Positions 2,324-34,290 of a DNA stretch of 34,290 bases are shown here, piece by piece. Each line of letters starts with the position of its first letter. The first letter of the stretch is position 1. Source of the DNA: a virus. The position numbers and the translations under genes are program-made. The notes beneath the pieces are model-generated. The model ran no database searches, had not been told where the DNA came from, and saw only the letters and a program-made list of their open reading frames with translations. The stretch is from IMG/VR virus record IMGVR_UViG_3300042368_001852, positions 1-34,290 of that record. One strand, written 5' to 3'.

Positions 2324-2347
2324 TGCCGTCTCCTACGCTCTCAGATT

Positions 2348-4104: not shown

Positions 4105-4128
4105 CGAGGCCCTCGCCGTCGCTTCATG

Positions 4129-6060
4129 CTATCGGTCCCAGAACGAGGATCCGCCATCATGATCCTCGGCCGGCCCATCATCCCGCGACGTCGGCTGATC
4201 CGCCTCGGCAACCAGCAGCGGCACCCCACCTCGCTCCTCTGCCCACCGGGCATCGCTCCACCGATCGGCGCCCACCAGTGCCGCCGCGGCCCGCGCATAG
4301 ACCCGGCAGTCGAGCGCCTCGTTTCGTGGCCGGGTCTTGATCCACTCGAACCGGTTGTAGCCCCGCCGGTCGATCGTGTTCGTCAGCCGCTCCGCGCACA
4401 GCTGCCGGAACCATTCCTCGCCGTGCTGGGGGAAGTGGCACCAGCCGTGGGGCAATCCCTCGCCCTCCTCTGGCAGGCCACGGCGCAGCCAGCCGTAGAG
4501 CTCGCTCTTTGCCGTGCTTGATCCCACCGGCCACACCTTCACGCCACCGCGCAGGGCCTTCCCGTTCCGCAGCACTTCCACGCGCCCCGGCGTGCCGATG
4601 ATCGACGTCTGGCTGTCGGGGCCGCCCTTCACGGCGATCACCCGGTTGCCGGCCTGGCTCCGCACCCACCGATAGACCTCCTGGCTCCTGAAGCCCGAGT
4701 CGATCGCCGTCATCCTGATCGGCAGCCGCTGGCCATCGCCCCGGCCGAACTCCGACCGGATGAACTTCGACAGCTCGCGCCACACCGCAGGCTGCGCCGT
4801 GTCGCCAGCCAGCACCTGAAAATCCAGGCTCCAGCTCTCCATCCCAGGGCCCCAGCCCACGATCTCCAGCTCGAGGCGGTCCATCTGCACGTCCACCCCG
4901 CAGGTGATGAACGCCACCTGCTCCGGCACCGTGCCGATCTCGTAGAGCTCCCGGCGGTTGTAGAGCGCCTCCCAGTCGGGGGCTTCGCCGTCGCAGTTGT
5001 ACGGCAGGGCCAGCACCGTGTTGACGAACGGCTGCTCCTTCGACGGGTCGTCCTTCGTCTTGGTGAACTCCAGGACCGCCTGACTCCAGCTGAACCAGCC
5101 CAGGGGTGAGTAGAGCGCGTTGCAGTGGTAGCCCTGGTGGAGGGTTCGCTCCGGGAACTTCGCCTCCCACCAATCGTCCTCCCACACCTCCGGGTCGTAC
5201 CACCAGGCCTTGGTGTCCTCGCTGATCCCCTCGCCGCATTCCACGCAGATCAACACCGGCGGCACCGTCAGCCGTTCCGGCAGGCCCGGGTCCTTCTCGT
5301 CCCACCGCATCTGCTCCCACTCCAGCGGCTGCCGGTGCCCGCAGTGGGGGCACGGCAGCTTCAGCGTGTTCTGGCTGCTCTCCTCCCACTTGCCCCAGAT
5401 CGCGCTCGTGCCCGCCAGCTTCGGCGTCGAGGTGTTTGCCTGCTTGCCACGGATGCCGAACGTCCGGCGGCGCGCGTTCACAACCGCCAGCGGGCTGCCC
5501 TCCTCGTCGACGTTCAACGGCCAGCGGTCGATCTCATCGTTCGCCGCGAACCGGATCGGCATCGACGCCAGGCCGCTCGCCGCGTTCGCACCGCGCATGC
5601 TCAGCTGACCGTTCGGGAAGTCCTTCTGCAGGATCGTGTTGCCGCTGTCGCGCGACTTCGACTCCTTGACCTTCTCTCGAAGCGCTGGCGTCGCTTCGAT
5701 CATCGGTTGGATCCTCGTCTTTGAGTATTCCTTCGCGCGGTCAATCGTCGGCTGGACGTAGAGGGTCGGCCCAGGCGCGATGTCCATGATGTAGCCGATC
5801 CAGTTGTTCAGGCCCTCGGATTTCCCCATCTGGCTGCCGAACACCAGCGTCACCTCCTGCACCTTGCTGGTGACCGACAGGTCATCCATCGGCCGCCGCA
5901 GGTACGGGGTCCGCGTGGTCTTCCACGGGCCGTGCTCGCTGCTCGCCTTCGGGCTAAGCCACCGCCGCTGGTCCGCCCACTGGCTCACCGTCAGCAGCGG
6001 GTCCGGCCGCAGGCCCTCCCAGAACGACCTCTCGACCGCCTCAGCTGTTGCCAGCGCCAT
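4129..6060 (-). CDS. Terminase large subunit, lambda GpA family
   Basis: The ATPase-nuclease motor that cuts concatemeric DNA and pumps it into proheads. Counting from the ATG at 6060, residues 75-83 (GSQMGKSEG) form the phosphate-binding loop typical of GpA terminases, and FAANDEIDRWP provides the acidic Walker B site. The C-terminal half, starting near CGVDVQMDRLELEIVGWG, is the RNase H-like nuclease. The protein is 643 residues, close to lambda gpA (641). I chose 6060 over an upstream TTG because GGAGG lies 9 nt before this ATG. It overlaps the small-subunit gene by 20 bp, a usual arrangement for the terminase pair. Confidence 0.95.
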   Translation of the reverse strand: MALATAEAVERSFWEGLRPDPLLTVSQWADQRRWLSPKASSEHGPWKTTRTPYLRRPMDDLSVTSKVQEVTLVFGSQMGKSEGLNNWIGYIMDIAPGPTLYVQPTIDRAKEYSKTRIQPMIEATPALREKVKESKSRDSGNTILQKDFPNGQLSMRGANAASGLASMPIRFAANDEIDRWPLNVDEEGSPLAVVNARRRTFGIRGKQANTSTPKLAGTSAIWGKWEESSQNTLKLPCPHCGHRQPLEWEQMRWDEKDPGLPERLTVPPVLICVECGEGISEDTKAWWYDPEVWEDDWWEAKFPERTLHQGYHCNALYSPLGWFSWSQAVLEFTKTKDDPSKEQPFVNTVLALPYNCDGEAPDWEALYNRRELYEIGTVPEQVAFITCGVDVQMDRLELEIVGWGPGMESWSLDFQVLAGDTAQPAVWRELSKFIRSEFGRGDGQRLPIRMTAIDSGFRSQEVYRWVRSQAGNRVIAVKGGPDSQTSIIGTPGRVEVLRNGKALRGGVKVWPVGSSTAKSELYGWLRRGLPEEGEGLPHGWCHFPQHGEEWFRQLCAERLTNTIDRRGYNRFEWIKTRPRNEALDCRVYARAAAALVGADRWSDARWAEERGGVPLLVAEADQPTSRDDGPAEDHDGGSSFWDR

Positions 6061-6622
6061 CCGCCAATGCCTCCAGTGCTCCGACCAGGTGCCGGTCAAT
6101 CACGAGCAGCACATCCGCCCGCTGGTCCGGCGTCAGCCCGCCGGCCGCCTTCGCAATCTCGCCGATCATCTGCGGGCCGATCCGCAGCACCGCATCACGT
6201 ACACGCCGGCCAGACTCGAACCGCACCCGGTTCATCTCCTCCGCGCTCACCAGCTTGCCGCTGCGCTCCTCGAACTCCAGCTGCAGCAGCTTCGCCTGGT
6301 AGGCGGTCTTGATCGCCTGGCCCTGGGCCATCGTCGGCATGCTAGCCGGCGGGCCATGCCCAGCCGGTGGGGCCGTCGTCCCGTGCGCCACCTTCGCCGC
6401 GGCCGCCGCCATCTGCCGCTGCCGGCCCGCCTTGATCGCCTCGCCCTGCCGGTACTGCGGCGCGGTGTTCCGCCCCCACTCCTCGTTCGCAATCGCCGGA
6501 TCGATCACCCATCCACGGCCCTCGCGCTTCGCTCCCTGCTTGATCCGGCCGTCAGCAATCGCCTTCCTGACTGCCTGCGGCACTACGCCAACCTGGGCTG
6601 CATAGTCCGCGAGCTTCAGCAC
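6041..6622 (-). CDS. Terminase small subunit, Nu1-like
   Basis: This 193-residue protein begins with a winged-helix-like module (LADYAAQVGVVPQAVRKAI, then a basic wing GAKREGRGWVIDP) resembling the DNA-recognition domain of lambda Nu1, which binds the cos/packaging site. The middle is Ala/Arg-rich, and a C-terminal helical domain (from about 90) contains EFEERSGKLVSAEEMNRVRFESGR, a pattern found in Nu1-like proteins that assemble with the large subunit. The start is GTG at 6622 with GGAG just upstream, overlapping the previous gene by 7 bp. The terminase large subunit follows immediately. Confidence 0.85.
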   Translation of the reverse strand: MLKLADYAAQVGVVPQAVRKAIADGRIKQGAKREGRGWVIDPAIANEEWGRNTAPQYRQGEAIKAGRQRQMAAAAAKVAHGTTAPPAGHGPPASMPTMAQGQAIKTAYQAKLLQLEFEERSGKLVSAEEMNRVRFESGRRVRDAVLRIGPQMIGEIAKAAGGLTPDQRADVLLVIDRHLVGALEALADGAGNS

Positions 6623-6918
6623 GACTCCACGGTGTACCCGAACAGGTGCAAGGTTGATTGCAGCGACAGGCTACTGCCCGCTTCCACGCCTCCCAGGCCG
6701 GCGATCTGCACCTTCTCCGGCGCGCTCACCAGGCCCGCCACCAGGTGGGCCAGCTGCTCGGGCCTGACGGACGTCCAGCCCTCGCCCCGCAGCATCCCGT
6801 CCACCGTCGTCTCGTCGCCCTGCTCGCCCAGCTCCACACGCAGCGGCGACGCCACCACCACACCACAACTCCAGCTGGCCCCGAACCGGATCGCCTGGAC
6901 GCTGATCATCATGCTCAT
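6616..6918 (-). CDS. Hypothetical protein upstream of terminase
   Basis: I do not recognise this 100-residue protein. It has a predicted beta-rich N-terminus (ISVQAIRFGASWSCGVVVASPL) and a leucine-rich C-terminal part, no obvious membrane segment and no enzyme motif. It is translationally coupled to the Nu1-like gene (7-bp overlap) and lies 15 bp after the ParB-like remnant, so it belongs to the packaging operon. Coding is supported by the tight packing and the unbroken frame. Function is unknown; a packaging accessory role is only a positional guess. Confidence 0.6.
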   Translation of the reverse strand: MSMMISVQAIRFGASWSCGVVVASPLRVELGEQGDETTVDGMLRGEGWTSVRPEQLAHLVAGLVSAPEKVQIAGLGGVEAGSSLSLQSTLHLFGYTVESC

Positions 6919-6933
6919 GTCGTCCGCCGCACC

Positions 6934-7272
6934 CTAGCCCTTGCCGGGTACCCACGCCCTGTTCAGCGCACCGGCCCGGCCCTTCGTCACCTGCGACGGC
7001 ATCCCCGCACGGTTCACCAGGCGCGTCACCTCCTCGCGCTCCATCCCCAGCCGCTTCTGGATCTCGCGCGCCGGCACACCCTCGGCCACCATCCCCCGCA
7101 CGATGTCCGCCATCCGCACCACCGCATGGGTGCCCCGGGCCCGGTTGTGCCGGATCGTGCTCATCATCCGATGCACAGGGTCCAGCAGCACCTGCACCGT
7201 CGGCACCAGCCCACCCGTCAGCGCTGCCACCCGCCGGTCACCGCTCACCGTCCACCGGTGGAAGCCGTCCAC
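6934..7272 (-). CDS. ParB-like protein lacking its N-terminus (possible remnant)
   Basis: The frame opens at GTG with VDGFHRW (V read as M if used as start). It continues through GDRRVAALTGGLVP and IRHNRARGTHAVVRMADIV, a signature I associate with ParB/Srx-fold phage proteins, then a helix-turn-helix-like segment (GVPAREIQKRLGMEREEVTRLV). Full members carry further ParB-fold residues before the DGFHRW motif; here an in-frame stop lies about 30 codons upstream and those residues are absent. It overlaps the preceding cupin-like frame by 35 bp. It could be a functional short HTH protein or the 3' part of a gene truncated by a deletion. The family assignment is moderately sure. Confidence 0.6.
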   Translation of the reverse strand: MDGFHRWTVSGDRRVAALTGGLVPTVQVLLDPVHRMMSTIRHNRARGTHAVVRMADIVRGMVAEGVPAREIQKRLGMEREEVTRLVNRAGMPSQVTKGRAGALNRAWVPGKG

Positions 7273-7594
7273 GCTCCTCCAGCGGCCCGCCGAGCACCAC
7301 CATCCCCAGCCATCCGTGCCGGCTGATCACCAGCCCCTGGCTCAGGTCCTGACCCACCGGCCGCACCTCACACTTCCCCGGCAACGACGCATACATCCCA
7401 GCCGTCAGCACGTGCGGCCATGCCCCCGACTGCCGCACCACCAGCGCGCCCTGGCTGCAAAACACGAACTGCGTCGCGTCCTCGCCCAGCACCAGGGCCC
7501 CGTCATCCACTCCCCACACCCTCAGGCCCGGCAGCTCCCGCAGCAGGCCATGCCCCGTCTTCAGCTCCTCGAATGCCTCATCCCGCTCGGTCAT
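7238..7594 (-). CDS. Cupin-like protein, apparently C-terminally shortened
   Basis: This 118-residue protein shows a beta-rich pattern with regularly spaced Gly and Pro (FVFCSQGALVVRQSG, MYASLPGKCEV, GLVISRHGWLGMVVLGGP), suggesting a single cupin-type barrel. It ends abruptly after EERGRLPPVDGER. I associate similar N-terminal halves with longer bicupin-like proteins in which the strand GRL continues into a second domain, so this copy may have lost it. The ATG overlaps the ParB-like stop by 17 bp. No metal-binding residue set is obvious. Function is unknown. Confidence 0.5.
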   Translation of the reverse strand: MTERDEAFEELKTGHGLLRELPGLRVWGVDDGALVLGEDATQFVFCSQGALVVRQSGAWPHVLTAGMYASLPGKCEVRPVGQDLSQGLVISRHGWLGMVVLGGPLEERGRLPPVDGER

Positions 7595-8309
7595 CCAGCC
7601 ACTCCCTGCACACCTGGGCCAGCGCCTCTGCCGTGCCCTCCAGCCCGTGCCGATTCTTCGCCGCGGCCACCGCCATCAGCACCTGCTCGCGGTCATCCCA
7701 CCGCATGCTCGCGCTGAACACGTGCCGCTCCTCCACCTCGCCGCTCTCCGCCGTCGCGTCGGCGTCCTTGTCGTCCTGCTCCAGATCCAGGCCCAGGCCG
7801 CCCTGCCCCTGGTCCTCCGGCTCCGCCCGCTCCGTCACCGGCGCCAGCGGCTGCGACAGCTGCTCGAACGCCCCCAGCTCCAGGCCATCGGTCAGCCGCC
7901 GCAGGTCGTCGTCACTGAAGCCCAGCGCGCCCAGGTCGAACTCCGCCTCCATCAGCGCGCCCAGCTCCTCCGCCAGCCGCTCCTCATCCCACCCAGCGTT
8001 CTCCGCGATCTTGTTGTCGGCCAGGACATAGGCCCGCCGCTCCTCCGGCGTCAGGTGGTCGAGCACCACCACCGGCACCTGCTGCATCCCCAGCTCGCGG
8101 GCCGCCATCAGCCGGCCATGGCCCGCCAGGATCCCGTTCTCCCCGTCCACCAGGATGGGCGCCAGGAACCCGAACCGCTGGATGCTCGCCGCCAGCTGCG
8201 CCACCTGCGCTGCGCTGTGGGTCCGCGCGTTCCCCTCGAACGGCACCAGCCGCTCCACCGGCCAGAGCTCGATCCGCTCCGCCATCCGCGGCGTCAACGC
8301 CTTCCCCAT
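7578..8309 (-). CDS. ParB-like nuclease/Srx-domain protein
   Basis: A 243-residue protein with a clear ParB N-terminal domain: VERLVPFEGNARTHSAAQV, SIQRFGFLAPILVD and GHGRLMAAREL, the last corresponding to the nucleotide-binding/GHRR-type motif. A family-typical LADNKIAENAGWDEERL helix follows. The middle is acidic and low-complexity, and the C-terminal 60 residues are unassigned. Similar phage proteins often sit next to terminase or methyltransferase genes and have been linked to DNA modification or nicking. I place the start at 8309 because AGGAGGGGAG lies directly before this ATG; an upstream GTG (8393) would run through two palindromes. It heads the packaging operon. Confidence 0.85.
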   Translation of the reverse strand: MGKALTPRMAERIELWPVERLVPFEGNARTHSAAQVAQLAASIQRFGFLAPILVDGENGILAGHGRLMAARELGMQQVPVVVLDHLTPEERRAYVLADNKIAENAGWDEERLAEELGALMEAEFDLGALGFSDDDLRRLTDGLELGAFEQLSQPLAPVTERAEPEDQGQGGLGLDLEQDDKDADATAESGEVEERHVFSASMRWDDREQVLMAVAAAKNRHGLEGTAEALAQVCREWLDDRAG

Positions 8310-8357
8310 CTCCCCTCCTGGCACCAGGCCCGAACCATAGGCCCGCCATTGCGCCAC

Positions 8358-8378
8358 GTTGCGCAACGGTTGCGCAAC
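8358..8378. repeat. Tandem pair of GTTGCGCAAC palindromes
   Basis: Two perfect 10-bp palindromes, at 8358-8367 and 8369-8378, are separated by one base, 49-69 bp upstream of the ParB-like start codon. The centre-to-centre distance is 11 bp, about one helical turn, which suits side-by-side protein dimers. A matching pair lies at 8605-8636. Candidates for the binding protein are the adjacent ParB-like protein, the small terminase or a transcription regulator; the sequence alone does not decide. Confidence 0.7.
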
Positions 8379-8489
8379 CGCACGCGCGATCACGGCCCAT
8401 ACTTCCTGCCCAGTTTTTCGCTCAGAACCCCCGCAACACCGCGATCCCTGAAACCGGGATTCCCGGGGTTTGGGCTCAGATCCCAGTCA

Positions 8490-8526
8490 TTCCAACGGTT
8501 TCCGCCACTCGTTTCGGAAGCTGGAA
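8490..8526. other. Imperfect stem-loop in the ParB upstream gap
   Basis: The arms TTCCA (8490-8494) with TGGAA (8522-8526) and TTCCG (8500-8504) with CGGAA (8515-8519) can pair into a two-step hairpin with a 10-nt loop. It lies in the 333-bp non-coding gap 8310-8642, near the terminator-like hairpin. No T-run follows, so it is not itself a terminator. It could be part of a packaging or control site. Confidence 0.4.
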
Positions 8527-8532
8527 CTAGCG

Positions 8533-8567
8533 AAAAACCGGGGCTCGCGGACCCGCAGGGGGTTTTT
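8533..8567 (-). terminator. Terminator-like hairpin, symmetric
   Basis: The arms AAAAACC (8533-8539) and GGTTTTT (8561-8567) flank a GC-rich inner segment with a further GGG/CCC pairing. On the minus strand the stem ends in a T-run, as in a Rho-independent terminator, about 75-110 nt after the 67-residue gene. The same symmetry would allow stopping from the plus strand. It would separate the tail-Z unit from the packaging operon. Confidence 0.55.
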
Positions 8568-8604
8568 CCACAGGAGGACCCAAAAGGTGGGGGTGGGGGG
8601 GGTG

Positions 8605-8636
8605 GTTGCGCAACGGTTGCGGTTGCGTTGCGCAAC
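8605..8636. repeat. Second pair of GTTGCGCAAC palindromes
   Basis: Perfect copies lie at 8605-8614 and 8627-8636, with half-site-like GGTTGC repeats between them. Centre spacing is 22 bp, two helical turns. Together with the pair at 8358-8378 this gives four identical palindromes bracketing the gap upstream of the ParB-like gene. They sit just after the stop of the 67-residue gene and next to a G-rich tract. Confidence 0.7.
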
Positions 8637-8642
8637 GGGTGC

Positions 8643-8846
8643 TCAGCGTGAGGCGGGGGGATGGGGGGGGCGGGGGAGGCCCTGGCGCATCACCCAGGTG
8701 GTTGCAGCGCGCTGCGTCATCCACGCCTCGAGTAGCTGCTTGCACATGCCCTGCAGGGTGGGCACGTCGTCGACTGCATCAATGGCGCGGGTCATGCGCT
8801 CCAGCTCGAAGGCTTGGGCAGGGGTGAGGGCGAGGGGATCAGGCAC
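8643..8846 (-). CDS. Small conserved-looking protein of unknown function
   Basis: A 67-residue protein starting at GTG 8846 (VPDPLALTPAQAFELERM). It is helical, with a hydrophobic heptad-like core (LERMTRAIDAV, LQGMCKQLLEAW), a WVMRQ segment and a Pro-rich tail. I associate very similar short proteins with cyanobacteria and their phages, but no function is known to me. It overlaps the stop of the tail-Z gene by 8 bp, so the two are probably co-translated. The frame extends upstream without a better start; the GTG was chosen because homologue-like sequence begins there. Confidence 0.65.
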   Translation of the reverse strand: MPDPLALTPAQAFELERMTRAIDAVDDVPTLQGMCKQLLEAWMTQRAATTWVMRQGLPRPPHPPASR

Positions 8847-9399
8847 GACCGAACCCCCTGCCCATGGCCCCCAGGGCGCGCACGATGCCGTCCTCCAGGG
8901 CCTGCTCGATGCGTAGCTCGGTGCGTGCCTGTAGGGCGGGGGACCAACGGCCCCCGGTGTAGATCGCGTGGATGGATGGGCCGTGGATGACGTCCAGGGG
9001 CATGCGCTCCTTGCCGCGGCGTTTGAAGGGCTTGCCCTTGGCCAGGAAGCCCCCCTTGACCAGGGTGGCCGACCCACCACGGTAGACGCGCATGCGAAGG
9101 CCCTTACGGGTCTCTCGCGGGCGGAACTGCATGGCGGTGATGGGCTTGCGGGAGGTGGTGATCACGGCGGACTGGCCATCGGCGGCCACGCGAGCGCTGG
9201 GGACGTCCTGCTTGATCCTGGCGGCCGAGAGGCTGTAGCGCTGGCCGATGCTCTTGGCCAGGGTGGTGCGGCCGGCCTTGGAGGCATCGCGGACGCCGGC
9301 GCGGATGGCCTTGGGGATGTCCTTGGCGGTGAGCTCCTGGAGTGTCTTGGTGAGCAGGTCATCCCCGACGAGGCGCGCGGTGATGTCGAGTCTGGCCAT
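8839..9399 (-). CDS. Minor tail protein Z-like tail completion protein
   Basis: This 186-residue basic protein resembles the minor tail protein Z (GPZ) family. Typical features are an N-terminal ARLDITARLVGDDLL strand-helix, a central helix pair with AIRAGVRDASKAGRTTLAK, then RYSLSAARIKQDV and a later MRVYRGGSATLVKGGFLAKG region. In lambda, gpZ acts at the head-proximal end of the tail. I chose ATG 9399 because the first family-like residue follows it; an upstream start would add 15 unrelated residues. The gene is detached from other tail genes and lies between the replication operon and the packaging operon, an unusual place. Confidence 0.8.
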   Translation of the reverse strand: MARLDITARLVGDDLLTKTLQELTAKDIPKAIRAGVRDASKAGRTTLAKSIGQRYSLSAARIKQDVPSARVAADGQSAVITTSRKPITAMQFRPRETRKGLRMRVYRGGSATLVKGGFLAKGKPFKRRGKERMPLDVIHGPSIHAIYTGGRWSPALQARTELRIEQALEDGIVRALGAMGRGFGRA

Positions 9400-9543
9400 G
9401 GGGTGATTTCCAGCGGCCCAAGGGTAGGCCCAACAGGCTGCCAACGTCTCTCACGGTGTTCTCACGGTAGGCGTGAGACTCGAAACCCGCTGCGGTTGCT
9501 GGGTTTTGGGGGCCTCCCCCTCTCTCTCTCACACCTCACTAGA

Positions 9544-23581: not shown

Positions 23582-23883
23582 CTGAGACCGCCCTCGTCAC
23601 CTACCTACTCGACAACCGCCATCGCATCCCCAACCGGGCCTTCATCAACTGCCTGGCCCTGGCTCGCCTAAACCCCACCCCTGTCCGCAGGGTCACCGTC
23701 GAGGAACTGATCACCCTGTTCCAACACAGCAAGCGCGGTGGCATCAGTGGCATCATGCTGGAGCTGAAGCGCTGCGGTCTGGTCGACTTTGAGTCAGGAG
23801 TCTGCGGCACCCCCGGCTACCTGATCTTCCGGGTCGGGCCCAAGGAGGAGAAGGCCCGTGAAGCTGACCCGAACCGCCGTTGA
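23578..23883 (+). CDS. Winged-helix-like protein upstream of integrase
   Basis: A 101-residue protein with a pattern suggesting a winged helix: VEELITLFQHSKRGGISGIMLELKRCGLVDFE, then a wing-like GTPGYLIFRVG. It could be an excisionase or regulator, since such small DNA-binding proteins often precede integrases. Its 3' end overlaps the integrase start by 26 bp in another frame. The HTH call is from pattern only. Confidence 0.5.
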   Translation: MTETALVTYLLDNRHRIPNRAFINCLALARLNPTPVRRVTVEELITLFQHSKRGGISGIMLELKRCGLVDFESGVCGTPGYLIFRVGPKEEKAREADPNRR

Positions 23884-25003
23884 TCGCGCCCTCCCCCGCC
23901 TGCGCCGGTATCGCCTCAACGACACCCTGGTGCCCGGCCTCTGCCTGCTGGTGCTCCCCTCGGGGGCCCGCACCTACTACCTGCGCCATCGCGTCGATGG
24001 CCAGCAGCGGGAACTGAAGCTGGGCACCCCTGCTGAGCTGTCCCCCGACCAGGCGCGAGAGATCGCCCGGGCGGCCCTCGCGCGCGTCCGCGCCGGCGGG
24101 GACCCGGGGGCAGAGCGGCGGGCGGCCAGGGAGGCCCCGACGATCGAGGTCCTCGCCGCCCGCCACCTGCAGGCCCACGCCAGCCGGAAGCGATCGGGCC
24201 GGAACGACGAGATCCTCTGGCGGCGGCACCTGCTGCCGGCGTTCGCGCGCGTGCGCGTGGCCGCCCTCACCCGCGAGCAGGTGCGCGAGTGGCATGCCTG
24301 CCACCCGCAGCCGGCGACCGCCAACCGGGCCCTGGAGGTGCTCGGCGTGGCGATGGGCCTGGCGGAGGAGTGGGGGTGGCGGCCGGTCGCCAGCAACCCG
24401 GTGCGTGGGGTGAAGGCCCACCCGGAGCGGCAGCGCCGCCGGTACGCCAGCCCGGAGGAGCTGGGCCGCCTGCGCGAGGCGATGGCCCGGTGGGAGGCCA
24501 CGGGCCCGCTGGCGATCCGCTGGCGGTTCGTCCAGCTGGTGCGCCTGCTGCTGCTCACCGGGGCCAGGCTGCGGGAGGTGATGGAGGCGCAGTGGTCGGA
24601 GATCGACTGGGCCAGGGGTGTGCTGCTGGTGCCGGCGGAGCGGGGGAAGACCGGGGCCAGCGAGGTGCGGCTGAGCGATCGGGCGGTGGAGGTGCTGCGG
24701 GCCCTGGAGGCCGCGGCCGGCGGCAGCCGATGGGTGGTGCCGGGGGAGAGCAGAGAGCGGCCGCTGGTGGGGTATCGGCGGATGTGGTTGGCGCTGCTCG
24801 AGGACGCGGGGGTGAAGGGTCTGCGGGTGCATGACCTGCGCCACACGTTCGCGTCCTACACCCTGTCGGCGGGCCAGCCGTTGGGCGTGGTGGGCCAGCT
24901 GCTGGGGCACCGGAGCACGCAGACCACGAGCCGGTACGCCCACCTGGTGGATGATGCGGCGCGTGCGGCGGTGGAGCGGGTGAGCGACGACTTGGGAATG
25001 TGA
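23858..25003 (+). CDS. int: Tyrosine recombinase integrase
   Basis: A 381-residue integrase of the P4/shufflon-like type. An N-terminal arm-binding domain (about 1-90, with YYLRHRVDGQQRELKLG) is followed by a SAM-like core-binding domain (about 95-180) and the catalytic domain. The catalytic set is complete: R237 in LTGARLRE, K264, H325 and R328 in HDLRHTFAS, H351 in LLGH and nucleophile Y360 in TSRYAH. The start is GTG 23858 after AAGGAGGAG. It should integrate the phage at the tRNA whose 3' half lies at 22647-22689. Its TGA stop is inside operator f. Confidence 0.95.
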   Translation: MKLTRTAVDRALPRLRRYRLNDTLVPGLCLLVLPSGARTYYLRHRVDGQQRELKLGTPAELSPDQAREIARAALARVRAGGDPGAERRAAREAPTIEVLAARHLQAHASRKRSGRNDEILWRRHLLPAFARVRVAALTREQVREWHACHPQPATANRALEVLGVAMGLAEEWGWRPVASNPVRGVKAHPERQRRRYASPEELGRLREAMARWEATGPLAIRWRFVQLVRLLLLTGARLREVMEAQWSEIDWARGVLLVPAERGKTGASEVRLSDRAVEVLRALEAAAGGSRWVVPGESRERPLVGYRRMWLALLEDAGVKGLRVHDLRHTFASYTLSAGQPLGVVGQLLGHRSTQTTSRYAHLVDDAARAAVERVSDDLGM

Positions 25004-26080: not shown

Positions 26081-27501
26081 TGTTCAACCCCGACTTCTAC
26101 CCCACGCCGCCCGAGGTGGCGGCCACCATGCTCGACCCCCTCGACCTGCGCGGCAAGGTCGTGGTGGAGCCCAGCGCCGGCAGCGGCAACCTGGTGCGCC
26201 ATGCCCTCGCTCGCTTTGCCCAGGAGGTGCTGACCGTCGAGCCGGAACCGAAGCTCCGGGCGATCCTTGCCGCCATCCCCGACAGCCGCCTGATCGGCAA
26301 CGACTGGCTGACCGTCACGGCAGATCAGATCAGCCACGTGGACCTGATCTGCATGAACCCACCCTTCTCGGCCGACGAGCGCCACATCCTGCACGCTTGG
26401 GAGATCGCCCCGCCCGGTTGCGAGATCGTGAGCCTCGCCAACTGGAACACCATCTCGGGCCACTTCCGGGGCCTGCAGCTCCAGGTGGCGAAGCTCATCG
26501 AGGCCTACGGCAGCAAGGAAGGCCTAGGCGAGTGCTTCAACACCGCCGAGCGGCCCACCAGGGTGAGCGTCGGCCTGGTGCGCCTCACCAAGCCGGGCCA
26601 ACGTGCAAGCGGAGCTGATGAGTTCGATGGCTTCTTCCTCGGGCCCGACGACCTCGAAGCCCAGGGCGAGGGGATCATCCCCTACCGGCGCAGCCGCGAC
26701 ATCGTGAACCGCTACGTCGAGGCCTGCCGCATCTACGACGAGCAGGTGGCGGCCGGCGTGCGCCTCCGCAACGTCCTGGACGGATTCTTCGGCAAGGATC
26801 TGGGCCTGCAGGTCACGGTCGAGGGTGAAGCGGTCACCCGCAACCGGTTCCGCAAGGATTTGCAGAAAGCCGCCTGGAAGCATGTCTTCGATGAGTTCCT
26901 GCCGCAGCAGATGGCCACCAGTCAGCTCGCGAAGGACATCAACCGGTTTGTAGAAGAGCAAAGCAAGATCCCGTTCACCGAGCGGAACATCTACCGGATG
27001 CTCCAGATTGTCGCCGGCACGCAGGAGCAGCGAATCGATCGTGCAGTGGAGGAGGCCATCGATGAGCTGACCCGCTACACCAAAGAGAACCGCTACGGCG
27101 TGGAGGGCTGGGCCACCAACAGTGGCTACATGCTGAACCAGCGGTTCATCTGCAGGGGGCTGGCGGAGCTGGCCTGGAGCAACCCCGGCAAGGTGCGGCT
27201 CCAGACCTACGGCGGCCAGTGGGATGACATCCAGGATCTGATCAAGGCGCTGTGTTTCATCACCGGCCGTCCCATCGAGGAGGTGCGCACGCCCGAGGAC
27301 ATCAACAGCAACAGCTACGAGCCAGGCATGTGGCACGACTGGGGCTTCTTCCTGTTCCGCCCCTACAAGAAGGGCACGGTGCACTTCGAGTTCAAGGATC
27401 GCGAAGTGTGGGGCGCTCTGAACGCTAGGTATGCACGGATCAAGGGCCAGATGCTGCCCGAGCAGATGAAGCGAAAGAAGCGCCCGGCCAAGAGCCGGTA
27501 A
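26080..27501 (+). CDS. DNA N6-adenine methyltransferase-like protein with DUF4942-type C-terminus
   Basis: A 473-residue protein. Residues 30-37 (EPSAGSGN) form the SAM-binding motif I and residues 93-96 (NPPF) the catalytic motif IV of amino-methyltransferases. The C-terminal half (about 200-450) resembles the DUF4942 domain seen in phage methyltransferases: FFGKDLGLQVTVEG, NRYGVEGWATNSGYMLN, GMWHDWGFFLFRPYKKGTVHF. It may protect phage DNA from host restriction or mark it for packaging or regulation. No cognate restriction gene is visible, so it is probably an orphan enzyme. Confidence 0.85.
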   Translation: MFNPDFYPTPPEVAATMLDPLDLRGKVVVEPSAGSGNLVRHALARFAQEVLTVEPEPKLRAILAAIPDSRLIGNDWLTVTADQISHVDLICMNPPFSADERHILHAWEIAPPGCEIVSLANWNTISGHFRGLQLQVAKLIEAYGSKEGLGECFNTAERPTRVSVGLVRLTKPGQRASGADEFDGFFLGPDDLEAQGEGIIPYRRSRDIVNRYVEACRIYDEQVAAGVRLRNVLDGFFGKDLGLQVTVEGEAVTRNRFRKDLQKAAWKHVFDEFLPQQMATSQLAKDINRFVEEQSKIPFTERNIYRMLQIVAGTQEQRIDRAVEEAIDELTRYTKENRYGVEGWATNSGYMLNQRFICRGLAELAWSNPGKVRLQTYGGQWDDIQDLIKALCFITGRPIEEVRTPEDINSNSYEPGMWHDWGFFLFRPYKKGTVHFEFKDREVWGALNARYARIKGQMLPEQMKRKKRPAKSR

Positions 27502-27516
27502 CCCTCCACTACCACC

Positions 27517-28794
27517 ATGAACACACCATTCGCCAAGGGCCACGATCCCGACACCCTCGACGCCGCACTGCTGGCCCCGCCGGCTGAGCGCGATGCCGCC
27601 TTCCGGGCGATCCGGCTGACCGGCCGGATGAAGCTGGCCAGCCCACGGTTCGGCGTCCAGCCGCCGCCCGTCGGGTTTGGTGACTACCCCGCCGACGACA
27701 GCGCCCAGGCCGCTGCAGAGCTGATCGAGCTGGCCCTACTCGCTCGCGAGCTGGACACCCCCTGGCGCAGCATGAACGAAGCCGTCCAGCGCCGCGGCAA
27801 CCCGCTCGACGGGCTGGGCGGGATCCTGCAGGGCCCGACCAGGCCGAACTCGCTGTTCCGGTCGGAGGAGCAGGCCAGCCCAGAGCCCTACGTCTCCCAG
27901 CTGTTGCTGCTGCCCGTTCCCATGGGGGCGATGCTTGCCGAGCAGCGCTACCGCCTGCGCACCGGCGTCTATGGCGTGACCGCCGAGACCCAGGCGGCGA
28001 TGCTGCGGGGGGCACCGATCGAGAGCCAGTCCTTCGGGGCTGAGGTCTACATCAACACGCCCCGGGCCATGGCCTCGGCCATGCACGTAGACCCTCCCTA
28101 CCTGATGGGCCTGCACTCGATGCTGATCCTCGATCAGCTGCGGGTGCCCCGGAGCTCCCTGTTCCCGCCCCTGCCGGCCGAGGCCGGGTTCACCGACTAC
28201 GGCGGCCCCGCGTCGGCCCAGTGCCTGCTGGCGGAGGCCAGTGATGAGGCCTTCTACGACTGCTGGGCACTGAAGTGGGGAGGCCCCCGCCGCGCCCGCC
28301 CGGAGGAGCTGCTCGCCCGTCAGGAGGTGCTGCACCCCCTCTGGCACGAGCGCGGGGCCCCGCTGCTGGCACCCTGGGGCGGCCGGCTGCCGCTGCCGAT
28401 CGCTGAGGGATCGCCGATGCACCCGGCTTGGCCTTCGGGCCATTCAGTCACCGCCGCCGCCGAAGCGGTGGTGATGATGGCCACCTACCAGGACAGGCCC
28501 TGGCCACTGACACCGATTCAGGCCAGACCCGACGGCATGTCGCTGATCCCCGCCAGCTCCAGCACCCTTACGGTGCATGGTGAGCTGCGCCGGTTCGCCT
28601 GGAACAAGGGCTTCAGCGGACGCGGAGCACTTGGCGTGCACTACCGCAGCGACGTGACCGACGGACTGATGGTGGGTCAGGCGGCTGCCGTGCGGGTGCT
28701 GCGTCAGCGGAAGGCGGAGGCGGACAGGTTGGGCCTGGCCCCCTGGGGGACGACCACGTTCACCGGGTTCGGCGGCATGTTGATCACGATCTGA
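27517..28794 (+). CDS. Vanadium-dependent haloperoxidase homologue (PAP2 superfamily)
   Basis: A 425-residue protein with the vanadate-binding residues of haloperoxidases in order: K253 and R261 in ALKWGGPRRARPEE, S307-G308-H309 in HPAWPSGHS, then R369 and H375 in GRGALGVHYRSD (R-x5-H). The spacings K-x7-R and R-x5-H match known bromo- and chloroperoxidases. Such enzymes use H2O2 to oxidise halides. They share their fold with acid phosphatases, so activity is not certain. No signal peptide is seen. Length is shorter than algal enzymes (about 550-600). It lies between the methyltransferase and the lysis genes and is not needed for virion building, so it is best seen as cargo. Confidence 0.85.
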   Translation: MNTPFAKGHDPDTLDAALLAPPAERDAAFRAIRLTGRMKLASPRFGVQPPPVGFGDYPADDSAQAAAELIELALLARELDTPWRSMNEAVQRRGNPLDGLGGILQGPTRPNSLFRSEEQASPEPYVSQLLLLPVPMGAMLAEQRYRLRTGVYGVTAETQAAMLRGAPIESQSFGAEVYINTPRAMASAMHVDPPYLMGLHSMLILDQLRVPRSSLFPPLPAEAGFTDYGGPASAQCLLAEASDEAFYDCWALKWGGPRRARPEELLARQEVLHPLWHERGAPLLAPWGGRLPLPIAEGSPMHPAWPSGHSVTAAAEAVVMMATYQDRPWPLTPIQARPDGMSLIPASSSTLTVHGELRRFAWNKGFSGRGALGVHYRSDVTDGLMVGQAAAVRVLRQRKAEADRLGLAPWGTTTFTGFGGMLITI

Positions 28795-29106
28795 TCAGCG
28801 ATGGCCCAGGGTGCGCACCTGCAGCTCCAGCTGCCGGATGCGTTCATCCTGGGCCTTGTCGATCGCGGGCTGGTTCTCCAGCTGCTTGCACAGCGCGTCG
28901 AGGGTGGTCTTCAGCGTTGCTAGCTGAACGGTCTGGGTGTCGAGCCTCGAGCCCACACTGCTGGTCATCCCCAGCGCCCAGCCCGAAGCCGAGCCAACGG
29001 TCGCACCGATCACAGTGAGGATCAGCGGCCCAACCCAGGCCGGGATCCCCTGCACCCTGTTGTCGCCGCTGCCTTCCATGCCGGCCATGTTACCTGGCCC
29101 GGCCAT
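28795..29106 (-). CDS. Single-pass membrane protein with coiled coil (lysis or spanin-like)
   Basis: A 103-residue protein. Residues about 22-46 (IPAWVGPLILTVIGATVGSA) are a likely membrane segment; the rest (LDTQTVQLATLKTTLDAL, QDERIRQLELQVRTLG) is a coiled coil. This matches i-spanin or XhlA-like lysis accessory proteins. It is the last gene of the lysis cassette, after the endolysin. Its stop codon abuts the haloperoxidase stop (TGATCA), with no gap. Role inferred from topology and location. Confidence 0.6.
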   Translation of the reverse strand: MAGPGNMAGMEGSGDNRVQGIPAWVGPLILTVIGATVGSASGWALGMTSSVGSRLDTQTVQLATLKTTLDALCKQLENQPAIDKAQDERIRQLELQVRTLGHR

Positions 29107-29115
29107 TCGCTGCCC

Positions 29116-29559
29116 TCAGCTCCACAGCTCGCGCGGGTCCGCGCCCGTCACCATCATCCGAGACAGCCGCTCCGCACGCTGGCCCACCTGCTTCGCCCAC
29201 CGCGACTGCAGCATCATCGTCGCCGCTTGCTGGTACTGCCCCGCCTGCACGGCGGCCAGCGTCCGCTTGAACTCCAGCAGTCCCTTGAGGCCCAGGTTGA
29301 AGGCCATGTCGATCAGCACCCGCTGGCGCACGTCATCGAGCTTCGCCACCCACGGCAGGGCGTTCAGCAACCCGTTCCGCACGTCCGCCAGGTCATTCGC
29401 CAGGAGCATCCGCGCCTCGGACAGGGTGATGCCCCGGTCCTCCAGGTTGCGGCCCACGCCAATGGTGAGCTTCCCCGCCGTGCAGCGGTAGGGCTTGAGG
29501 CGCAGGCCCTCGTGCAGCTCGATCTGGCGAACGAGGGCCTTGTCGTCGATCTGCCCCAT
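29116..29559 (-). CDS. Endolysin, T4-type lysozyme (GH24)
   Basis: A 147-residue lysozyme of the GH24 family. Catalytic positions follow E-x8-C-x5-T: E17 in LHEGLRL, C26 in KPYRCTAGK and T32 in LTIGVGRN, the Glu-Cys-Thr variant of the Glu-Asp-Thr triad known in several phage endolysins. The C-terminal helical lobe contains QRVLIDMAFNLG and WAKQVGQRAERL. It cleaves peptidoglycan glycan chains. No signal or SAR segment precedes the domain, so a holin is needed. Candidate holins lie just upstream. Confidence 0.92.
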   Translation of the reverse strand: MGQIDDKALVRQIELHEGLRLKPYRCTAGKLTIGVGRNLEDRGITLSEARMLLANDLADVRNGLLNALPWVAKLDDVRQRVLIDMAFNLGLKGLLEFKRTLAAVQAGQYQQAATMMLQSRWAKQVGQRAERLSRMMVTGADPRELWS

Positions 29560-29774: not shown

Positions 29775-30494
29775 TCAGGCGGTGGCGATGATGGCCCAGC
29801 CGGTGCCCGGTCCTTCGACCATCCACCGCGGGCCAAGGTTCTTGCGAGAGTAGCGGAGGCGGGCGCCCCAGTTGTTGATGTACCTGCCCGAGAGGAGGTC
29901 CAGGTCGCCGAACGGATCGTGAACAATGATCGCGTCAGCAGTGTGGCCAATCGCGGTGATCCAGTGGCCGTCGCCGGATGGCGCGCCGACGGGGCCATGG
30001 TGGAGGATGCCGATCGGGACCGGGATGCCGCGGTCGATCTGCCGCTCGATCGTCCCCCAGTCGGCGTTCTGGACGAAGCGCGCCGTGACACCGAACGACT
30101 GGAGGGCGCGGAGCTGCGCCGCCGCGTCGATGGTGTCGCCGTAGCGGAGCACGCGCCCCAGGTAGCGGTCGTCGGCGTTCGGGCCTTGCAGCGTGCCGGG
30201 CCGGATCGTCTCCAGGAGCATGGCGCAGGCGCTGCTGAAGCACATCCGCAGGGCGTGGCCGGTCTCGCTGTCGCGCTGGCTGTAGTAGGGCACCTGCAGC
30301 GGATTGGTGCGGGTGCGCGGCTGCTCCTGCTTGCCGTCCTGCCGCCAGGTGTGGAAGTGCTCGGCGTCTTTTCTCTTCAGGCTGGCGGGCACCTTCTCCC
30401 AGAACTGAACCAGCGCCGCCCGTTGATGGGGGAGCCCCTTCCAGTGCTCGAAGTACGGGGTCGGGTCGAGGATCAGGTCAGGGCCTGCGCTCAT
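29775..30494 (-). CDS. C39-like cysteine peptidase-family protein
   Basis: A 239-residue protein. From about residue 67 the fold resembles peptidase C39-like proteins: VPYYSQRDSETGH (Q73), CFSSACAML (C85), GHWITAIGH (H177) and VHDPFGD (D193) give the expected Gln/Cys-His-Asp set. The N-terminal 65 residues (PTPYFEHWKGLPHQRAALVQ) are a separate helical region, perhaps for binding. It may cut peptidoglycan cross-links during entry or lysis, acting with the GH24 lysozyme; a peptidase role on proteins is also possible. It overlaps the neighbouring small membrane-protein gene by 17 bp. Confidence 0.7.
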   Translation of the reverse strand: MSAGPDLILDPTPYFEHWKGLPHQRAALVQFWEKVPASLKRKDAEHFHTWRQDGKQEQPRTRTNPLQVPYYSQRDSETGHALRMCFSSACAMLLETIRPGTLQGPNADDRYLGRVLRYGDTIDAAAQLRALQSFGVTARFVQNADWGTIERQIDRGIPVPIGILHHGPVGAPSGDGHWITAIGHTADAIIVHDPFGDLDLLSGRYINNWGARLRYSRKNLGPRWMVEGPGTGWAIIATA

Positions 30495-30777: not shown

Positions 30778-32241
30778 TTACCGAAGCCGCCAGTATTCGG
30801 GCGTGCGGCCGTAGGCGCTGGTGTAGCTCCCCTCGCCCGCCGACCATGTGAAGCTGCCCCGGCTGGAGCTGTTGCTGATGATCGTCCGCCCGTCGGTCTG
30901 CACCACCCCGATGTGGGGGTATGGCGGGCTGCCGTTGTCGCGCATGATCGCAATGGCGCCAGGCTCCGGGCCCGACAGCAGGGTGCCGGCCCCGCCGGCA
31001 AGGACCGATCGAGCGTTCGGCACGTAGTTGCTGTTGCCCCACGGTGGCGTGATGCCAGCGCTGCGCAGGACCTTGTTCACCGCGTAGAGGCAGGCGTTGT
31101 TGCCACCGTCCGGGCCGCCCCTGGTGTTCATCCCGCGCGCGCGCTCGGCCGCCTGCGCGATCAGCCGCGCCTTCTCGCTCGCCGGCCGGCCGTTGTTCGC
31201 CCCGGCTCGCACCCCGTTCATACCCACGCCGCCGCCGGCCTGGCCCGATGTCCACTCGTCGTTGTCGCTGCCCTCGGTGCCGCATTCCACCGAGGTGCTG
31301 TAGCCCCCGCCCGCGAGATCGTGCGTGATGCTCTTCGCCTGCCAGGTGCCATCCACCTCCGGCCGGAACCCCCGCAGCGTGATGCTCCCCTCGGCGTTCA
31401 CGTCCGGCCGGCCCTGCATCTGCAGGCTCACCCGCACCTCCCCCGATCGGAAGGACTGCAGCCGGGCCGCCGCCGCCTTCTCCGCCTCCGCCTGGGTCTT
31501 GTGCAGCTGGCGCTCCTCGAACACCGGCAGCTGGCCGCTGCTCTCGCCCGCCGTCACCACCTTCTCGGTGTTGGTGGTGCGGTCGATCCATCGGGCCTTC
31601 ACCCCGCCGTAGGCGCCGCGCCCTTTCAGCGTCGCCCGCCAGTTGCTCACCTCCTCGAGGCGGATCGTCGCGCCGCCGGCGGTGTTCGGCTGGCCCCGGG
31701 GCACCACCACCAGCTTCCCGTCCGCTGGCTTGATCACCGCCCCGTAGCGCTCCGCCAGACGGGTGAGGAAGCCCTGGTCCGTCTCGTTCGTCTGGTCCTC
31801 GTGCTGGATCTGCAGGCCCGCCAGGTCGCCCTTCACCACCACCTGCAGGCCGTTGCGCTTCCCGATCTCCTGCACGATCTGGCCCAGGGTCTTGCGGTCC
31901 CAGCTCTGGGTGCGGCTCTCCTTCACCAGCTCCGGGGCCGTCTGCGCCGCAGTGGCGCGGATCACCATCGACCGAGGGCCCATGCTCAGGTCCACGTCAT
32001 CGACGGCGTAGGCGCCCATGTAGGTGGGCTTGCGGGCGCCGTTGCTGTAGCCAAGCCAGACACGCAGCCAGGCCCCGTAGCGGGGCACCTCCATCCGCTT
32101 GTCGCGGTCATCGATCGTCAGCTCCAGGCTGTCGGACTGCTGGCCCGCCTGGTCCGTGATCCGCAGGCTCACCAGCCGGTCGCGGATCCTGTCGGTGATG
32201 TCGGTGCCGTCGGCCTCGATGCGGAACGAGGGGGTGCTCAT
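30778..32241 (-). CDS. Baseplate hub protein gpD-like, fused to a cell-wall hydrolase
   Basis: A 487-residue protein. Residues 1-345 match the P2 gpD/late control protein (tail spike hub): DSLELTIDDRDKRM, MGAYAVDDVDLSMGPRSMVIRA-type segments, QTNETDQGFLTRLAERYGAVI. A C-terminal domain of about 110 residues resembles NlpC/P60- or CHAP-type hydrolases: NNACLYAVNKVL (C384), PGAIAIMRDN and PPYPHIGVVQTDG (H443). P2 gpD is 387 residues, so the extra part is an addition. The fusion would place a peptidoglycan hydrolase at the tail tip for entry. It overlaps gpX by 4 bp. Confidence 0.85.
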   Translation of the reverse strand: MSTPSFRIEADGTDITDRIRDRLVSLRITDQAGQQSDSLELTIDDRDKRMEVPRYGAWLRVWLGYSNGARKPTYMGAYAVDDVDLSMGPRSMVIRATAAQTAPELVKESRTQSWDRKTLGQIVQEIGKRNGLQVVVKGDLAGLQIQHEDQTNETDQGFLTRLAERYGAVIKPADGKLVVVPRGQPNTAGGATIRLEEVSNWRATLKGRGAYGGVKARWIDRTTNTEKVVTAGESSGQLPVFEERQLHKTQAEAEKAAAARLQSFRSGEVRVSLQMQGRPDVNAEGSITLRGFRPEVDGTWQAKSITHDLAGGGYSTSVECGTEGSDNDEWTSGQAGGGVGMNGVRAGANNGRPASEKARLIAQAAERARGMNTRGGPDGGNNACLYAVNKVLRSAGITPPWGNSNYVPNARSVLAGGAGTLLSGPEPGAIAIMRDNGSPPYPHIGVVQTDGRTIISNSSSRGSFTWSAGEGSYTSAYGRTPEYWRLR

Positions 32242-32450
32242 GGATCCCAGATCCTCACCGTCTCGGTGGTGCTCGGGGCCGGGAGCTCCGGCAGGCTGAT
32301 CACCAGCCCATCGGGCAGGACCGGGGCCATGTCCGCCAGGCCCGGGTTCGCCGCCAGCACCACCTCCACCGTCTGCTGGGTGCGGCCGTAGTACCGCCAG
32401 CAGATGGCATCGATCTCATCGAACTGCTGGGTGACGTAGAGCTGGCTCAT
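32238..32450 (-). CDS. Tail protein X-like (LysM-type)
   Basis: A 70-residue protein of the P2 gpX family, small LysM-like proteins that join the tail hub. Features: FDEIDAICWRYYGRTQQTVEVVLAANPGL and ADMAPVLPDGLVISLP. Length fits (P2 gpX is 67). It sits between gpU- and gpD-like genes as in P2. ATG 32450 overlaps the gpU stop by 4 bp. Confidence 0.88.
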   Translation of the reverse strand: MSQLYVTQQFDEIDAICWRYYGRTQQTVEVVLAANPGLADMAPVLPDGLVISLPELPAPSTTETVRIWDP

Positions 32451-33376
32451 GGTTGGATCAGGCCCCGCACGGCGGAGGTGATGAAGGGGTCCACATCCAG
32501 GATGGTGGTGATGGTGGCGGCGTTGCGCACCATGTCGCCGAGGGCGGCGCCGGCCGGGCCCGATCCGCCGATCGCCTGGAGCACCCCGGAGGTGGCGGGC
32601 CGGAGGGCTTCGAGGGCCACGGCAATCGCCGGTGCGCCGCGGCCCTGGGCCACCTGCTGCACCATCTGCGCTGCGTTGATGCCCTGCTGGAGCCAGCCGC
32701 CGGCCTGGCTGGTGTCGATGCCGGCGAGGCCGAAGGCGCCAAGCGCCGCGCCCACGTAGTCGCGGTTGGTGATCGCCCGCGCGATCGATGCCACCTGCCC
32801 GAGGTTCAGGCCCGCCGCCTGGGGGGAGACCGGCAGGCCGGCGATCGAGGCCAGGCCGTTGAGGCCGATGGCGTCGAAGGCCCCGCCGGATGCGGTGAAC
32901 AGGCCGACGCCGGCCGCCAGCTGCGCGAGGGCAGAGGATGGCGACGACACGTTCGCCAGGGCCAGCGGGCTGGCGGCCTGGCCGGGGTCGTCCTCCACGT
33001 AGCGGCCGAGGGAGACGGAGAAGGTGATCTGGCGGGCCCCGCCGCCGGGGGCGAAGGTGCTCTGGCCCTCGCGGATCTGGCGGATCGCCCACTTCCCGAA
33101 CACCCGGCCGTTGCCGTTGGTGAGCATCTGCGGCTCGCCCTTCGCGGCCAGGGTCCGCAGCGTCTCCATCGTCGCCTGGGTGCCGGAGAGGCCGGGCAGC
33201 AGCACCCCGTCCAGGGTGATCTCCTGTGCTCCAGGGCCGAGGAACTGCAGCGCCGGATCCCGCAGCAGCCGGTCCTGCTGCTCCCAGCGGAACTCGGCCG
33301 TGCGGTCCAGCGACTGCGGCACGCCGTTGGGGATGTCGAACTGGAAGTCGCCGAGCTGGAAGAGAGGGCGGGCCAT
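32447..33376 (-). CDS. Tail protein gpU-like with long C-terminal extension
   Basis: A 309-residue protein. The first 130 residues match the P2 gpU family of tail-terminal or baseplate-associated proteins: PLFQLGDFQFDIPNG, PALQFLGPGAQEITLDGVL, LRTLAAKGEPQMLTNGNG and GKWAIRQIREGQSTF. P2 gpU has 159 residues, so here an Ala/Gly/Leu-rich extension of about 150 residues follows. It is 2 bp from the tape measure stop, as in P2-like phages. Family is secure, the role of the extension unknown. Confidence 0.85.
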   Translation of the reverse strand: MARPLFQLGDFQFDIPNGVPQSLDRTAEFRWEQQDRLLRDPALQFLGPGAQEITLDGVLLPGLSGTQATMETLRTLAAKGEPQMLTNGNGRVFGKWAIRQIREGQSTFAPGGGARQITFSVSLGRYVEDDPGQAASPLALANVSSPSSALAQLAAGVGLFTASGGAFDAIGLNGLASIAGLPVSPQAAGLNLGQVASIARAITNRDYVGAALGAFGLAGIDTSQAGGWLQQGINAAQMVQQVAQGRGAPAIAVALEALRPATSGVLQAIGGSGPAGAALGDMVRNAATITTILDVDPFITSAVRGLIQP

Positions 33377-33378
33377 GG

Positions 33379-34290
33379 TCAGTCGTTCAGCAGGGTGCGG
33401 TGCTCGGCCTCGAGGCGGCGCACCATGTCGGCCAGCGCAACCTCGACCTGGTGCGCGATGGCGTTGGCGTCGCCGCCCGAGGCGTTGATCGTGACGTTGG
33501 CGTTGAGCACCAGCGGCGCGCGCGAGGTGGCCCCGGCGGCGGGGGCAGGGCCAGCCAGCAGGGCCGCCATGGCAGCGGCGGAGAGGGGCCGAGCGACGCG
33601 GGGCACGACCGACCCGTCGAGACCGGGCACGAAGAGCTCACGGCGCCGCTCGCCCACGATGTAGGGGAAGCCGGCGCGGACGCGGCCGCCGAGGGCCCGG
33701 CCAGGGATCGAGGGCACGGGCACGATGTTGTTGCTGGGCGCCACCGCCGTGAAGGGGGCGGCAGCCGGAGCCGCAGGGGCCTCCCCGCCGCCGCCGACCA
33801 TCGAGCCGATGCGGCTGACGGCGCCGCCGATCCAGCCGAAGAGAGCGCCGGCCCGGGCCTTCAGCCCGTCGATGATCGAGGTGATGATCCGCTGCCCGAT
33901 GTTCGCCCTGGTGAAGAGCAGCCAGATGGCGGTGGGGATCGGGGCGATGATCCCGAGCAGCGCCATCGGCAGGCGGCTGGTGGCCTGGATCACGCTCTGC
34001 CAGAGGCGGGAGAAGAAGCCGCTGATCGGCCGCCAGTTCTTGACGATGACGAACGCCAGGGCGCCGATGCCGAGGATCGCGGCGGCGGCGATGCCGATCG
34101 GGCCGGTGGCGAGCACCATGAACACCGTGCCGAGGCCGGCGATGATCGGGCTCGCTGCCGCGATCGCTGCGCCGATGGTGCCGATGGCGGTGATCACCCC
34201 CGCGATGATCGGCAGGGCGATCACCAGGCCGGCCAGGGCGCCGCCGATCAGCACGATGCCGGTCACCAGCCACTGGTTGTTCTGCGCCCA
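33379..34290 (-). CDS. Tape measure protein, C-terminal part (5' end outside window)
   Basis: An open frame enters from the right edge and ends at 33379. The visible 303 residues contain long hydrophobic stretches (GIVLIGGALAGLVIALPII, IGTIGAAIAAASPIIAG, GIAAAAILGIGALAFVIV), then VKNWRPISGFF, Gly/Ala/Pro-rich linkers and a C-terminal GRALGGRVRAGFPYIVGERRRELFVPG typical of phage tape measure proteins, closing with a charged helix. It sets tail length and is ejected with DNA. The start is not seen, so the GTG at 34266 is probably internal. Confidence 0.88.
   Translation of the reverse strand, partial: WAQNNQWLVTGIVLIGGALAGLVIALPIIAGVITAIGTIGAAIAAASPIIAGLGTVFMVLATGPIGIAAAAILGIGALAFVIVKNWRPISGFFSRLWQSVIQATSRLPMALLGIIAPIPTAIWLLFTRANIGQRIITSIIDGLKARAGALFGWIGGAVSRIGSMVGGGGEAPAAPAAAPFTAVAPSNNIVPVPSIPGRALGGRVRAGFPYIVGERRRELFVPGLDGSVVPRVARPLSAAAMAALLAGPAPAAGATSRAPLVLNANVTINASGGDANAIAHQVEVALADMVRRLEAEHRTLLND

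Follow-up and report, generated by a model that had tools for sequence, protein, structure and literature searches.

We analysed a window of 34,290 nt, the full length of an IMG/VR virus record, in which two convergent genes with abutting stop codons lie close to the lysis genes of a phage. The first gene (27517–28794, forward strand) encodes a protein of 425 amino acids that is almost certainly a member of the vanadium haloperoxidase family, in a compact algal-type form without the N-terminal Tat arm. The second (28795–29106, reverse strand) encodes a partner protein of 103 amino acids with one predicted membrane segment, a coiled-coil-like C-terminus and an invariant cysteine, C73. Together they form a cassette of 1607 bp (27505–29111), with a DNA methyltransferase gene carrying DUF4942 on its left (26083–27501, forward strand) and a phage lysozyme gene on its right (29116–29559, reverse strand; PF00959, E 2e-15).

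The genes of the record are those of a temperate phage, and its closest relatives in cellular genomes are Cyanobiaceae prophages. A head and packaging block on the reverse strand (428–9444) encodes capsid and protease, portal, TerL, TerS, a ParB-like protein and neck, and a tail block occupies 30778–34290 on the same strand. The record also encodes primase, helicase, RecE/RecT, SSB and a tyrosine integrase (23858–25003, forward strand; phrog_1, E 1.8e-60), whose gene stands out in base composition (window positions 24001–25000 have a G+C of 0.76, against 0.68 in the rest of the phage). A C39-like endolysin (29775–30494, reverse strand) had 105 phage matches, all of them Synechococcus phages or cyanophages. 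Capsid, terminase, portal, primase, helicase and tail genes are 37–49% identical, and the lysozyme 63% identical, to those of a collinear prophage in a 2.7 Mb cyanobacterial genome. A closer collinear prophage, in a Cyanobiaceae genome, has proteins mostly 50–86% identical to those of the window phage, including TerL (75%), portal (69%), capsid (71%), a tail protein (68%) and integrase (86%). The Cyanobiaceae label of these prophage genomes rests on a family grouping around a cyanobacterial genome of 37% G+C, together with a reading of G+C content. From this gene kinship, in particular of the endolysin and the prophages, we infer that the host is a picocyanobacterium of the Cyanobiaceae.

A preliminary description of this DNA had placed the haloperoxidase gene in a temperate phage, between replication and lysis genes. 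A setting between the early or lysogeny genes and the lysis genes is confirmed, and the exact site runs from the methyltransferase gene, downstream of the integrase, to the lysozyme gene. The convergent second gene had been overlooked, as had residues H302 and W250 of the enzyme.

The haloperoxidase gene and its active site

Vanadium haloperoxidases are known from algae, fungi and bacteria, and seaweeds make bleach-like compounds with them. In a phmmer search against solved structures the phage protein matched the Ascophyllum bromoperoxidase best (E 1e-18), well above chance level, followed by the Acaryochloris and Corallina enzymes. Its ATG start is backed by homologous starts (M..xF/W(S/A/N)K(G/S)..) in L147, L005, L139, L008 and L013, other viral contigs that carry the compact enzyme. 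The gene also occurs on a second IMG/VR contig, obtained from a different sample, within 16.8 kb that match the window at 99.99% identity, which makes an assembly artefact unlikely.

The preliminary description had named K253, R261, S307-G308-H309, R369 and H375 as vanadate ligands with family spacing, and every one of these residues is where it had been put. Codons W250 to K253 span 28264–28275, R261 is at 28297–28299, H302 to S307-G308-H309 span 28420–28443, and R369 to H375, the latter being by homology the histidine that bonds vanadate, are at 28621–28641. The spacing (K-X7-RP, SGH, R-X5-H) is that of the bromoperoxidase family. Eight residues were invariant in 82 homologues, namely W250, K253, R261, P262, H302, H309, R369 and H375. 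H302 lies seven residues before the histidine of SGH and is the second histidine of bromoperoxidases, equivalent to H411 in Ascophyllum numbering by alignment to 1qi9. W250 occupies the halide-selectivity position three residues before the vanadate lysine; in the Acaryochloris enzyme the residue at this position (AmVHPO R425) influences which halide is used, and it is a tryptophan in Ascophyllum, as in the phage enzyme, and in Curvularia (PMC11871015). Residue 307 is serine throughout the clade of compact viral enzymes (the short clade) and alanine in most other homologues. A histidine four residues before the RPE arginine, kept in 55 of 58 cellular homologues, is lost in the short clade (P257 in the window enzyme). 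The enzymes of L005, L007 and L139 have an insertion of three residues between the vanadate lysine and arginine.

An AlphaFold2 prediction from six sequences was poor (pLDDT 55), and an alignment of 82 rows was used instead; the resulting monomer model is confident (pLDDT 93.3, pTM 0.93). A Foldseek search with this model matched 1qi9 with a TM score of 0.86, 5aa6, 1qhb and 1up8 with 0.83–0.86, and the Acaryochloris structure 5lpc with 0.71. The active site had been proposed for a structural check, and the model answers it as regards similarity of fold only, by superposing on solved bromoperoxidases (TM 0.84–0.86). Assignment to the vanadium haloperoxidase family thus has the support of the Ascophyllum match, the invariant residues and the modelled fold. 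The phage enzyme shares with the Ascophyllum (1qi9) and the Corallina and Acaryochloris (1qhb, 1up8, 5lpc) enzymes all vanadate ligands with their spacing as well as the second histidine, and belongs to this known family by every catalytic feature examined, its activity being inferred. It differs from them in size (about 425 amino acids against 556–666), in having proline for histidine in the loop between the lysine and the arginine, in lacking the N-terminal arm and export signal, and in that its gene lies in a phage, opposite a convergent partner. The absence of the arm, which in cellular and algal enzymes is about 100 residues long, is a difference in length and not in catalysis, and we do not treat the arm as a defining feature of the family; without it the oligomer and the substrate pocket may differ from those of the solved enzymes.

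A mobile two-gene cassette

The cassette is mobile. L149, a sister phage, matches the window collinearly at 89–95% DNA identity and lacks exactly positions 27505–29111: its sequence aligns with window positions 30180–29112 (89%) and 27504–26077 (89%) with a single base in between. The haloperoxidase gene therefore sits in a discrete insert of 1.6 kb. Reading the L149 junction base by base, we saw no target-site duplication. A different phage, L147, has only positions 27505–29037 in common with the window (84%), and its flanks are unrelated; the neighbours there are a thymidylate-kinase-like gene and a methyltransferase-like gene other than that of the window (names from sequence reading). The insertion point is a convergent junction, at which the integrase and methyltransferase side meets the lysis genes. 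A consensus scan for promoters and terminators near the cassette found none that was convincing, and the consensus patterns were uninformative.

Phage morons, or lysogenic-conversion cargo, are a general concept for inserts of this sort. As in morons, a small insert lies between phage operons in one phage and is missing from a near-identical one; the empty site in L149 meets the criterion that a discrete insert be absent from close relatives. The window cassette is distinguished by its content, a haloperoxidase with a convergent membrane partner. The earlier impression that the enzyme gene looks like cargo is thus borne out by the empty site, except that the cargo is a cassette of two genes and not a lone gene.

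The slot beside the lysis end is likely a hotspot for cargo. In one Cyanobiaceae genome (G697, L235:15024-15811) the matching slot is occupied by small genes of other kinds, and in the collinear cyanobacterial prophage (L119:4308-9730) we read, next to the lysis end, a block of Panacea-like, DUF2971-like and DUF488-like genes.

A convergent partner homologue accompanies the compact enzyme in all six lineages of the short clade (the window, L147, L005/L007, L139, L008/L140 and L011/L013). Neither gene was found without the other among these lineages, whose genomes are otherwise different; the terminases of L005 and L008 belong to other families, which indicates that the carriers are different phages, and the TerL family phrog_15 was found in none of the other viral contigs. 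Partner homologues are 73–103 amino acids long and share a single hydrophobic segment, a coiled-coil-like C-terminus, one invariant cysteine and a basic C-terminal residue. An alignment of seven partner rows was too divergent for scanning, and a version of four rows was used. The partner scan matched seven contigs, all with the haloperoxidase; its patterns were built from known members, and divergent partners could have been missed. Neither gene occurred in any phage among 50,697 annotated records, and the partner had three matches in 400 Cyanobiaceae genomes, with E 0.004–0.009 per genome, which is about chance level. Domain and PHROG searches recognised no known family for the partner. The low dN/dS of the haloperoxidase (0.12–0.37) and of the partner (0.03–0.20) indicates that both genes are under purifying selection. 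We consider it probable that the two are a functional pair.

Proposed chemistry and competing explanations

We propose that the cassette is mobile cargo in which a compact algal-type haloperoxidase, with a membrane partner, uses peroxide and halide, an explanation that we hold with reasonable confidence as the best overall. The chemistry of the family turns vanadate, H2O2 and halide into an oxidant at the level of hypohalite (PMC8407465). By inference, the phage protein would bind vanadate, bonded to H375 and held by K253, R261, S307, G308 and R369. It would take up H2O2 with the help of H309 and H302, and oxidise bromide or iodide, with chloride less likely, to such an oxidant. Use of host peroxide together with bromide or iodide is most likely, in the absence of activity data. 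In the absence of an export signal, the enzyme is expected to act in the cytoplasm, whether of a lysogen or of an infected cell, or once lysis has released it, with the partner presumably in the membrane. The haloperoxidase gene starts 15 bases past the methyltransferase stop and may be transcribed together with the integrase side; the partner, 9 bases past the lysozyme stop, may be read late in the window phage, and in other phages it should need its own promoter.

As optional cargo, the enzyme might consume photosynthetic H2O2, turn it into reactive halogen, or both. That halide is really oxidised in vivo seems likely to us, with neither activity nor expression data at hand. Points against it are that the host cell may contain little bromide or iodide, that the loop histidine is lost in the short clade and that two sister lineages have the three-residue insertion between lysine and arginine. 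Any single physiological role stated here is tentative at best. In our view the likeliest role is consumption of peroxide or halogen chemistry that benefits the infected or lysogenic cell, followed by exclusion or competition; neither has been shown.

The exclusion or competition reading, which we regard as possible yet unlikely, is that of a chemical moron: hypohalite made from the peroxide burst of an infected or competing cell would harm superinfecting phages or neighbours, and the membrane partner would place or time it. It fits the mobility of the two-gene cassette, its empty site, a conserved pairing, and a variable slot in which a Cyanobiaceae prophage holds other small genes. The Panacea-like and DUF2971-like block that a cyanobacterial prophage carries next to its lysis end (names again read from sequence) and a distant relative that lies near AbiGi and Shedu genes on a Rhizobium plasmid point the same way. 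However, neither immunity nor toxicity has direct evidence behind it, co-regulated gene pairs are seldom convergent, and the partner has no known family. In its broadest form, in which virus-specific haloperoxidases and a dedicated membrane protein make up a mobile system of halogen-based immunity, turning photosynthetic peroxide into reactive halogen for superinfection exclusion or competition, the idea is similarly speculative.

A second explanation concerns the partner alone, which could be an ordinary i-spanin or holin-like lysis gene that is paired with the enzyme only incidentally. Its position in the window, 9 bases after the lysozyme gene and on the same strand, would suit such a gene, and PHROG searches gave a weak resemblance to Rz-like spanins (E 0.004–0.044). 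In L005, L139 and L147, however, the partner is alone on its strand, facing the local genes and always set against the haloperoxidase, with no recognised lysis gene beside it; L008 is similar save for one doubtful ORF. Among 80 loci with the closest lysozymes the partner is missing from 78, the remaining two being exactly those with the haloperoxidase, and the empty site of L149 lacks both genes together. This reading is already disfavoured, and we give it little credence.

It is also improbable, though it cannot be dismissed, that the enzyme of the proposed pair is a phosphatase, which would have kept the PAP2 fold and its oxyanion site and would use phosphate esters, for example those of nucleotides or lipids. 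PAP2 is the sole Pfam match of the protein, slightly below threshold (26.6 against 27.2 bits). PAP2-fold phosphatases and haloperoxidases have a common site chemistry, and among the structure matches was 3bb0, an apo-chloroperoxidase trapped in dephosphorylation. Class A acid phosphatases have a compact fold and the signature K-X6-RP...PSGH...SR-X5-H-X3-D. The phage enzyme has PSGH and R-X5-H-X3-D but does not meet this signature, with K-X7-RP, the bromoperoxidase spacing, and a glycine before R369; it also retains H302 and W250. Query-normalised TM scores to acid phosphatases did not exceed 0.24 in Foldseek, as against 0.86 to bromoperoxidases. The haloperoxidase reading is favoured because of this difference in fold match, which does not by itself show chemistry, and phosphatase activity is not excluded because the vanadate and phosphate sites are alike.

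Viral relatives and origin of the enzyme

Exact-peptide scans with the single protein yielded only the second contig, and alignment-based searches were needed to find homologues, which are present on 27 viral contigs besides the window. They fall into three groups: the short clade (408–447 amino acids), a group of 507–532 amino acids and a group of 534–543 amino acids. Proteins of the short clade start at the position of the cellular FSKGLPHD and have no Tat signal; an RR motif near the N-terminus is present in 41 of 80 cellular homologues. The 507–532 group (L009, L010, L014–L022 and L027) lies on phage-looking contigs of 32–48% G+C without the partner gene; on one of these we read GroEL-like and dUTPase-like genes, and the protein of L018 had no match among annotated phages. 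The 534–543 group (L023–L026) lies on contigs of 95–619 kb and 58–64% G+C, and the nature of these viruses is not established.

In a phylogenetic tree the short clade was supported at 100/100, and all 24 viral rows grouped together at 98/92 with no cellular row inside. A single viral origin of these haloperoxidases is likely and not proven, because branches are long and the cellular sequences in the tree had been chosen as the window's best matches, without a search for nearer relatives of the two longer groups. Phylogeny had been expected to point to a donor; the viral clade offers no cellular candidate, and a Cyanobiaceae host donor was sought and rejected. That the phage simply acquired a host gene in recent times, as an auxiliary metabolic gene, is very improbable: cyanobacteria, some Cyanobiaceae included, do have haloperoxidases, but a search of 400 Cyanobiaceae genomes found them in only 10 (best E 1e-17, 34% identity), the closest genome sequence found is 33% identical as against up to 79% among phages, and the clade is of viruses only.

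The first characterised viral halogenase, VirX1 of cyanophage Syn10, is a flavin-dependent enzyme (PMC8407142). It resembles the phage haloperoxidase in being a halogenating type of enzyme on a cyanophage, insofar as the activity of the latter is inferred, and differs in cofactor and family, with no use of peroxide or vanadate. A structure search of BFVD found the same fold in giant viruses (TM 0.83–0.88; Hokovirus A0A1V0SGK0, Sylvanvirus A0A3G5AI90 and Yasminevirus A0A5K0U6L7); these are viruses of eukaryotes, and their proteins are longer and named only as PAP2 or uncharacterised. We found no report of a vanadium haloperoxidase from a phage, prophage or giant virus, or of the pair with its partner, in the open-access literature, most subscription papers and preprints being outside this scope. 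What is new is a compact phage-borne subfamily with a conserved convergent partner in a mobile cassette.

The viral copies thus form a clade of their own, whose compact version travels as a two-gene cassette in temperate phages, by inference of picocyanobacteria. If the enzyme is active, these phages would bring peroxide and halogen chemistry into abundant phototrophs and might thereby alter peroxide balance, halocarbon release and competition among phages. The window phage and L149 form a natural pair with and without the cassette, in which its role is directly testable.

The distant Rhizobium relative is a protein of 375 amino acids without the N-terminal arm, annotated as hypothetical, on plasmid pRphaN671a of Rhizobium phaseoli (L003:5824-6951), and its gene lies 0.8–1.5 kb from the AbiGi and Shedu defence genes.
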